A stretch of DNA of 64,000 nucleotides from Phocaeicola plebeius (lineage in GTDB: Bacteria > Bacteroidota > Bacteroidia > Bacteroidales > Bacteroidaceae): NCBI GenBank assembly GCA_022767125.1, contig JALEPZ010000026.1:1-64000 (forward strand), written 5' to 3'. A program made the translations under genes and the position numbers. This document shows positions 51,154-53,840 of this stretch, piece after piece (within the stretch, counting starts at the first letter, position 1; every line of letters begins with the position of its first letter). The notes beneath the pieces were generated by a model that saw only the letters and a program-made list of their open reading frames with translations, ran no database searches and was not told the DNA's origin.

Positions 51154-51594
51154 ATGAAACAACCTCTCGAAATACGTTGCGTAACGGAACCGCTCGACGA
51201 CTATGTGGAGGCGGTCCGTCGTCTGCTGGGCCAGCTCACCACCCGCCCCATTGCCTTTGGGAAGACGGAACTGGAGCAGCTCCTTGCCGACGAATCCTCC
51301 CGGCTCTATGTGGCCTGCCTGGATGGTACCGTCGTGGGAATGGCCACCGTAGGCACCTACCTCTGTCCCACCGGCCGGAAATTCTGGCTCGAAGACGTAG
51401 TGGTGGACGAGGCATACCGCGGCAGGGGAGTGGCCCGCGCCTTTCTCGAAACGGTGGTCGACGGCCTGCACCTGAGCGGGACCGAGAAGCTCTATCTCAC
51501 CTCCAATCCCTCCCGCATTGCGGCCAACCGGCTCTACCAGTCGATGGGCTTCCAGTCTAAAATCACGAATGTGTATTACAAGACTCCGGAGTAG
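51154..51594 (+). CDS. GNAT family N-acetyltransferase
   Basis: LEDVVVDEAYRGRGVARAFLETVV acetyl-CoA motif. Confidence 0.93.
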   Translation: MKQPLEIRCVTEPLDDYVEAVRRLLGQLTTRPIAFGKTELEQLLADESSRLYVACLDGTVVGMATVGTYLCPTGRKFWLEDVVVDEAYRGRGVARAFLETVVDGLHLSGTEKLYLTSNPSRIAANRLYQSMGFQSKITNVYYKTPE

Positions 51595-52585
51595 CGGGAG
51601 CCTTCAGCGTCTTCAGAAACCGTTCCACGTCGCGCCGGATCTGTTGGTAGAGGGGGCACTGTTTGTAGTTCGTGTTCTTGCGCAACACCTGGTCGACCCC
51701 TACCACCAACCGGTCGTAGGCATGCAGCTCGTTTTGTAGCTGCACCTTATGCAGGGCCAGCTGGTGTATCTGCTCTTCGCGTTCGCGGCGCAGGCTGTTG
51801 CAGACGGGAACCAGCAGGCGCAACACCACATTGTTCATGATGTGGTGGCCCTGGATGAACAGGTAGGTGGTGTCGGGCGTGACGCCCAGCTCTCCGAATT
51901 CCTGTTTCAGCTGCTCGATTTCTCCGAGGGCGGCGGGGTGTGCCTTCTCCAGGCTGTGGAGCTTCTTGTTCACCCGCCGGGCCATCTGTGCCAGACAGGT
52001 TTCGGGGTGGTGGGGATTCACCGCGTCGAGCCGAACGAACGAGCAGAAGTCCAGCAGCGAGAACTCCGACTGGTCCTTCTGGCGATAGAACCATACGGAC
52101 CATGCAAACAGCGGATAGGCGATGCGCGAATATTGGCGCATGAACTCCGCATAGTCGATAAGGGGATGGTCGTTCAGGGTCGCCGTCACGCAGACCTCGT
52201 GGAGCGATTCGGCATAGCAGAGGAAGTTCTCGATGGCATAGGCATAGGTCTGCAGGACATAGGGATTTCCGAGCATATAGCGCGAAGTCTGCGTACGGCC
52301 TTGCAGCAGGAAGTCGTAGTCGCTGTCGACACAGGCAATCATGTTCCTTCCCAGCTGGTTCATCAAAACCGTTTTCTTCCCCTTGGCCAGCGAACTTCTC
52401 GACGGGAGCATCACCTCGAAATAGCGTGTCTGGTCTTCATAGTCGGCCAGGATGGAACGCCAGAACAATACGTCGTCGTAGCTTTCCACGTAGGCTACAA
52501 TCTTTCGCCTGGCGCATTTCGGCCTCAGGTTGTTGGCTGCCTCAATGTAGCGCGACGATAGGTTGTCCGTCAGTCTTTTTCCCAT
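51563..52585 (-). CDS. DUF4435 (TOPRIM-like) protein, partner of the upstream ATPase
   Basis: AYVESYDDVLFWRSIL, IACVDSDYDFLL (E...DxD), AYAIENFLCYAES. Confidence 0.75.
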   Translation of the reverse strand: MGKRLTDNLSSRYIEAANNLRPKCARRKIVAYVESYDDVLFWRSILADYEDQTRYFEVMLPSRSSLAKGKKTVLMNQLGRNMIACVDSDYDFLLQGRTQTSRYMLGNPYVLQTYAYAIENFLCYAESLHEVCVTATLNDHPLIDYAEFMRQYSRIAYPLFAWSVWFYRQKDQSEFSLLDFCSFVRLDAVNPHHPETCLAQMARRVNKKLHSLEKAHPAALGEIEQLKQEFGELGVTPDTTYLFIQGHHIMNNVVLRLLVPVCNSLRREREEQIHQLALHKVQLQNELHAYDRLVVGVDQVLRKNTNYKQCPLYQQIRRDVERFLKTLKAPATPESCNTHS

Positions 52586-52610
52586 AGCTTGCCTCCTCTC
52601 CTTGTCGCGG

Positions 52611-53435
52611 TCAGTAGGAAGTAATGTCGCTCACCTCGGTCACGGCATCGATCCATCCGTTCATGATGAGGGCCGGCGAGTGGGTGGTCATGATGACCTG
52701 CGTGTTCGGATTCAGCTCACGGATCAGTTCGATGAGCCGCTGCTGCCACTCCACGTGGAGCGAGATTTCGGGTTCGTCCATGAAGAGCGCACAATGCTCG
52801 AAGTCCTGCACCAGTACGGTGAGCAGGATGACGAGCATCTGTTTCTCGCCCGAAGAGAGCTGGTAGGGGGTCAGTGTGTCGCCGTCTTGTTCAAACAGGA
52901 TTTCGTTGCTCTTGCGCAGGATGCGTTTCCCCGTTTCGCTGAACAGGTCGTCCATCAGGTCCTGGAACCGGGTCTTGGCCTTCGAAACCTCCGCCGCCCG
53001 GACTGTGTCTTCGGGCCGGCCACTGGTCAGCAGTTCGATGATGCGGTTGCCGATGTTCACCTGGTAGTCCAGGTACCGGCGTTGCAGCTGGTAGATCTGC
53101 CAGTCCAGTTCGGTCCGCACGTTCTGGTTCCCGATTTTCTCGATGAGCGTAGAGCTGATGAGCGGGCGGTCGAAACTGCGGATGACGTTGAAGGGGATAT
53201 AGGTGGCATCGGCCGGAGAGAACTCGAAATGTACCCCCGCTCTGCCGCCGTTGCTGAGTGCCCCGCCCTCCAGGTCGTCCAGGCTTTTCACCGAGTTGTT
53301 CAGGATGGTGCTTTTCCCGATGCCGTTCACGCCGCTCAGAATGTTCACGTCCGGCCGCAGGTCCCAGGAGATGTTCTTCCGTCCCCACAGCCCGATGATT
53401 TCAATGCGTTTGATGTACTCCGCTTGCTTTTTCAT
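52611..53435 (-). CDS. AAA/SMC-type ATP-binding protein (OLD/AAA15-like)
   Basis: NILSGVNGIGKSTILNNSV, YQLSSGEKQMLVILL, ALFMDEPEISLHVEWQQRLI, MTTHSPALI. Confidence 0.9.
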   Translation of the reverse strand: MKKQAEYIKRIEIIGLWGRKNISWDLRPDVNILSGVNGIGKSTILNNSVKSLDDLEGGALSNGGRAGVHFEFSPADATYIPFNVIRSFDRPLISSTLIEKIGNQNVRTELDWQIYQLQRRYLDYQVNIGNRIIELLTSGRPEDTVRAAEVSKAKTRFQDLMDDLFSETGKRILRKSNEILFEQDGDTLTPYQLSSGEKQMLVILLTVLVQDFEHCALFMDEPEISLHVEWQQRLIELIRELNPNTQVIMTTHSPALIMNGWIDAVTEVSDITSY

Positions 53436-53460
53436 GGTGCTCAGGTTTTGCTGTTGCAAA

Positions 53461-53468
53461 CAAAGTTA
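53461..53468 (-). promoter_or_regulatory. -7 box (TAACTTTG) for the ATPase/DUF4435 operon
   Basis: caaagtta on the + strand 26 nt before the start codon. Confidence 0.5.
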
Positions 53469-53609: not shown

Positions 53610-53840
53610 ATGACCAGAGAGGAACTTTGGGAGAAAAACTATGCAGCCGTATGGCAGTTTGTGCAGCAGAACCACCGGGGCCCGTCGCGCCATCACAAGG
53701 AGGAATTCCGCCTGCTGAACTGGATGAAGTATAATCGCAAGATATTGAACCAAAAGCAGATGGAGCCCGTCCGGAAGGAGAAGTTCCAGAAGCTGCAGGA
53801 ACTGATTCATTCTTTCCATCGGGTGAATCAGTATATGTAG
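53610..53840 (+). CDS. 76-aa protein resembling a stand-alone helicase-associated (HA) domain
   Basis: WEKNYAAVWQFVQQNHRGPSRHHKEEFRLLNWMKYNRKILNQKQMEPVRKEKFQKLQEL; -7 box tatatttg 53574-53581; aaaggaggt SD. Confidence 0.65.
   Translation: MTREELWEKNYAAVWQFVQQNHRGPSRHHKEEFRLLNWMKYNRKILNQKQMEPVRKEKFQKLQELIHSFHRVNQYM

Follow-up and report, generated by a model that had tools for sequence, protein, structure and literature searches.

PARIS systems, which act against phages by suicide of the host cell, pair an ATPase, AriA, with a TOPRIM nuclease of the DUF4435 type, AriB. Defence systems such as these are usually gained and lost quickly. In the PARIS literature, a hexamer of AriA sequesters AriB until the anti-restriction protein Ocr triggers its release, upon which AriB dimerises and cuts tRNA, which in the case of E. 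coli AriB is tRNA-Lys. AriB has E26 as its catalytic glutamate and holds the anticodon through lysines K60 and K64, and its active site is similar to that of the TOPRIM rRNA maturase RNase M5 (PMC12409363). The E. coli B185 type (PDB 8ux9 / 8v45-8v49) has an AriA of 464 aa and is patchily distributed on P2/P4-type elements. A published rule recognizes PARIS as an AAA_15/AAA_21 ATPase gene beside a DUF4435 gene, with scores of >32, 27 and 27 (PMC9122126). OLD, Gabija GajA and PtuA also couple an ABC ATPase of related fold to a nuclease, although TOPRIM is fused in OLD and GajA, and PtuA has an HNH partner.

Our study examined a stretch of 64,000 nucleotides from Phocaeicola plebeius (the window), in which an ATPase gene is followed after a 25-nt gap by a DUF4435 gene on the same, minus strand, the layout of E. 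coli PARIS. The features are as follows:

51563..52585, minus strand: AriB-like DUF4435 protein, predicted TOPRIM nuclease, 340 aa
52611..53435, minus strand: AriA-like ABC/SMC-type ATPase, compact form, 274 aa from ATG
53460..53467, minus strand: TAACTTTG, promoter -7 box of the Bacteroidetes type (TAnnTTTG), ~30 bp ahead of the ATG of the ATPase gene

Both open reading frames lie where the initial annotation had placed them, with the strand and gap it gave, and all of the motifs it quoted are present, namely GVNGIGKST, LSSGEKQM, FMDEPEISLH and THSPALI in the ATPase and VESYDD, DSD and ENFLCYAE in the DUF4435 protein. An in-frame TTG is an optional alternative start that would extend the ATPase frame to 53459. 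Against Pfam, the ATPase matched AAA_21 (E 2e-19, 71.1 bits) and AAA_15 (E 2e-17, 64.0 bits) and its partner matched DUF4435 (E 5.7e-54, 183.8 bits), all above the scores of the published PARIS rule. The same annotation had proposed a compact, divergent PARIS relative, to be checked by structure comparison and with PADLOC, and profiles and structures alike bear this out. PADLOC identified the proteins as AriA (E 5.1e-57) and AriB (E 3.8e-62). Among sequences of solved structures, AriA came closest to the ATPase (E 1e-14), its profile found AriA as the best PDB match (E 3e-21) and AriA structures were the top PDB matches of its AlphaFold model. The DUF4435 protein had no match in the PDB by sequence; its AlphaFold model (mean pLDDT 90.7) is only 9 % identical to E. 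coli AriB and had AriB (8ux9_A) as its sole credible PDB match, at a probability of 1.00, an E of 1.3e-3 and a modest TM of 0.45-0.48. As both proteins are homologues of AriA and AriB by profile and by best structural match, assignment to the PARIS family holds. Kinship to OLD, which had been suggested alongside that to PARIS, is only distant, as GajA was matched at no better than E 0.1 and ATPase and nuclease are separate genes rather than one polypeptide.

By anatomy, the pair is the compact-AriA kind of PARIS. Between Walker A region and signature, the window ATPase has ~141 residues and E. coli AriA ~316, so that this stretch is ~175 residues shorter and the insert of the full-length (~464 aa) AriA is absent from the 274-aa protein; a PADLOC AriA model, of 253 positions, covers compact AriAs. 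The ATPase signature and Walker motifs of E. coli PARIS are conserved, with LSSGE, DEPE, the H-loop and the lysine of Walker A invariant in 105/105 family sequences. A helix at about residues 110-131 (LDWQLYxLQRRYLDYQVNIGNR), which hardly varies within the family but does so in mobile relatives, could mediate contact to the partner or inside the ring. Variability is highest at residues 51-70 and 141-150, which are possible sensor surfaces. Pairs with the same gene order, catalytic residues and PADLOC AriA/AriB models are known from small ColE1-like or mobilizable plasmids, namely pRK2 (E. coli W), pK708696-4 (K. pneumoniae) and pAhaem11616c (A. haemolyticus). These differ in being mobile, in having ATPases of 325-336 aa and in a DUF4435 protein of only ~20 % identity. 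On three small plasmids, pRK2 among them (records L184, L185 and L188), a compact AriA/AriB-like pair is nearly the sole cargo.

The active site of the nuclease is similarly retained. Residues E34, D38, D87, D89 and D91 of the DUF4435 protein, which include the TOPRIM glutamate and DxD motif conserved from E. coli PARIS, were found in all 105 family sequences, and E119 in 104/105. Four of these (E34, D87, D89 and E119) are also kept in plasmid-borne DUF4435 relatives and in those of other families, and are the putative catalytic residues. Judged by order and spacing, E34 is a candidate counterpart of E26 of AriB, and a basic helix (K68/K70/K71) a candidate for K60/K64. Compared with nearly all family members in the alignment, the window protein is four residues shorter directly ahead of the catalytic DxD strand (VLMN-QLGRN-MIACVD).

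The initial annotation had also given the ATPase gene a promoter of its own, and this is supported beyond the window. In 80/104 family loci, the 120 bp preceding the ATPase gene held a TAnnTTTG box, in most cases 25-50 bp away from the start codon, against a mean of 8.4 and a maximum of 16 loci for shuffled sequences; before the DUF4435 gene, the box was found in only 3/105. The DUF4435 gene directly followed the ATPase gene on the same strand in each of the 105 family loci examined. A box at the ATPase gene and rarely at its partner indicates that the pair is one transcription unit; its promoter is of the primary-sigma, or housekeeping, type. A predicted PARIS was reported among the transcriptomically active defence systems of a B. 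thetaiotaomicron strain (PMC12135933), and this may be the pair described here.

Using samples of one genome per species, the DUF4435 protein was found in 59/62 species of the same genus (37/38 high-quality genomes) at an identity of 54-76 %. Across the family Bacteroidaceae it was present in 193/200 genomes, 191/198 of high quality (96 %) and all 22 genera, with mostly full-length matches of 48-65 % identity; ksgA, an essential-type control, was found in 198/198 of the same family genomes. Outside the family it is scarce, with 17/198 genomes (16/194 high-quality) in a draw from the order and 15/299 high-quality genomes in a draw from the phylum, each including three Bacteroidaceae members, which places the pair in ~4-7 % of other Bacteroidota. 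The pair is thus a near-core chromosomal module of the Bacteroidaceae, old and inherited, as the initial annotation had allowed in its caveat that this could be a core gene pair, and it differs in this from the patchy, element-borne PARIS of E. coli. About a dozen genomes have additional, mobile-looking DUF4435 copies, <30 % identical. In a neighbouring family, f102, two genomes have a solo DUF4435 gene (L080:9902-10954, plus strand; L081:9998-11047, minus strand), ~40 % identical and with the catalytic residues kept, and no AriA-type ATPase was found beside it or elsewhere in either genome. A literature search, with subscription papers and preprints outside its scope, returned nothing specific on a core PARIS in Bacteroides, Bacteroidaceae or Prevotella; what our study adds is a compact-AriA lineage whose gene pair belongs to the core genes of a whole bacterial family.

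The surroundings of the pair are those of a chromosome. Its GC content (0.57-0.58) equals that of the window (0.57), no tRNA gene was found in the window and the neighbours tested held no mobile-element domain, being ordinary chromosomal genes: a DUF349 protein, mgtE, ksgA, an LPG-synthase-like membrane protein, a peptidase, a sigma factor, a GH20 protein and a sialidase. The earlier description of a pair set between GNAT and mltG genes, with no obvious island, was correct as to the chromosomal setting, with the small correction that the GNAT gene runs towards the DUF4435 gene and shares ~32 bp with its 3' end. To the right of the window pair lies a gene for a 76-aa protein, followed by mltG. 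This small gene (53610-53840) is divergent from the ATPase gene, and its product has a weak, below-cut-off match to helicase-associated PF03457. Among the other genomes examined, G017 alone has retained flanks of the window. It shares the left side (mgtE, ksgA, membrane protein and peptidase) but has on its right EamA and a helicase, the commonest right flank in the family, where the commoner neighbours are an EamA transporter in divergent orientation (16 loci) and an SF1 helicase (9 loci). Given the common left flank, the right flank of the window is better read as a local rearrangement than as a sign of an island. A single locus shared across the family was considered and rejected, as flanks differ between genomes, which indicates that the pair moved with chromosomal rearrangements. 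Two plasmid-labelled PLSDB records, OY725943.1 (Bacteroides finegoldii, L186) and OY726067.1 (Phocaeicola massiliensis, L187), both carry the pair; they are 98-99.5 % identical to chromosomal contigs and are probably mislabelled chromosome pieces.

Phylogenetic inference from 110 DUF4435 and 108 ATPase sequences, using quick trees without bootstraps that serve for genus clustering only, gave 18 genus-label changes for DUF4435 (minimum 17; shuffled mean 79) and 17 for the ATPase (minimum 16; shuffled mean 78). Gene trees that track genus labels almost perfectly indicate vertical inheritance of the pair. Values of dN/dS of ~0.07-0.23, from the few pairs unsaturated at synonymous sites, indicate strong purifying selection. 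Loss is rare and usually takes both genes together, as the ATPase orthologue was missing as well from eight genomes without the DUF4435 gene; it is kept in a ninth (G209), although an assembly gap is possible. In Bacteroides loci the pair is flanked by mechanosensitive-channel and EamA transporter genes. These two genes are directly adjacent at an empty site in genome G103, where the neighbours meaB and DUF1573 are kept, and in three complete Bacteroides genomes TCA-cycle genes, instead of the pair, separate the same two flanks. A search for remnants of the pair at the empty sites found none. Joint loss and an empty site indicate that the bacteria can do without the pair and that its two genes function as one unit. 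Universal conservation with essential housekeeping behaviour, which the initial annotation had named as grounds for abandoning a defence reading, does not describe the pair, since complete genomes without both genes show that it is not essential.

Taken together, the reading we favour, at a probability of roughly 60 %, is an ancient, vertically inherited, near-core, compact PARIS-family operon of the Bacteroidaceae whose ATPase holds a TOPRIM RNase in check as in E. coli PARIS. The pair would have been acquired, or have arisen, once, at or before the base of the family, and have descended vertically since. As the ATPase-control and nuclease parts are both conserved, the same logic as in PARIS is the best explanation of how it may work. 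By analogy with the E. coli system, an ATPase ring would hold the DUF4435 RNase inactive, a trigger would make the ATPase release it, and the freed RNase would dimerise and nick host tRNA, which would stop translation and, with it, phage growth. The long AriA insert is absent, however, which makes an Ocr-type protein bound as in E. coli an improbable trigger, and with ~141 rather than ~316 residues from Walker A to signature sensing must differ from that of E. coli AriA. Defence appears to be the likeliest role. However, near-universal vertical retention is atypical of defence, and a housekeeping or stress role fits it equally well.

It is this unusual retention that makes domestication the main rival. 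Here, the PARIS pair would have taken on a cellular role, for instance in the quality control or surveillance of tRNA or rRNA, or in a stress-triggered or programmed growth arrest. We consider this possible, yet appreciably less probable than the reading above. Core distribution, vertical descent, purifying selection, the conserved sigma-type promoter before the operon and the housekeeping neighbours all agree with it, as does the resemblance of the AriB active site to that of an rRNA maturase, RNase M5 (PMC12409363). RNase M5 itself has no ATPase partner, and no match to it was found in our analysis. Against domestication, complete genomes lose both genes, unlike ksgA, the AriA/AriB pairing and the ATPase control site are still recognizable, and the mobile relatives on small plasmids are defence-like.

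A selfish toxin–antitoxin pair, kept by addiction and of no defence benefit, would combine a toxin-like nuclease and an ATPase that inhibits it, and the two genes are indeed lost together. We regard this as improbable, as either gene of E. coli PARIS can be deleted without toxicity (PMC9122126), the solo DUF4435 gene occurs in the two f102 genomes without any AriA-type ATPase, and selection on the nuclease site has been long-term and purifying; the ATPase without DUF4435 in G209 is a further point against it, if not due to an assembly gap. Least credible of all, and barely worth entertaining, is an ordinary mobile PARIS/OLD defence cassette recently acquired at the window locus. PADLOC would call the pair PARIS, and about a dozen genomes have the mobile-looking extra DUF4435 copies. 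However, 96 % of the family has the pair, its trees match the genera, its GC content is that of the window, the window holds no tRNA gene, and the tested neighbours hold no mobile-element domain. The pair had no match among phage records, and its two Bacteroidaceae 'plasmid' matches are those of chromosomal identity described above. Recent acquisition in the Bacteroidaceae is refuted by prevalence, trees and GC content.

In summary, a PARIS-type pair fixed across a family, with every catalytic residue kept, raises the question of what maintains it. 'PARIS' has been reported in 20 % of human-gut MAGs, mainly those of Bacteroidales, a figure that probably reflects the core pair of the Bacteroidaceae. 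If domestication proved true, 'PARIS' calls in gut genomes would mostly count a core gene rather than acquired immunity, and a PARIS module would have turned into a conserved cellular function at the root of a dominant gut family. The minimal AriA offers a system for finding the trigger sensor, and Bacteroides and Phocaeicola are genetically tractable hosts in which to ask about a cellular role of PARIS.
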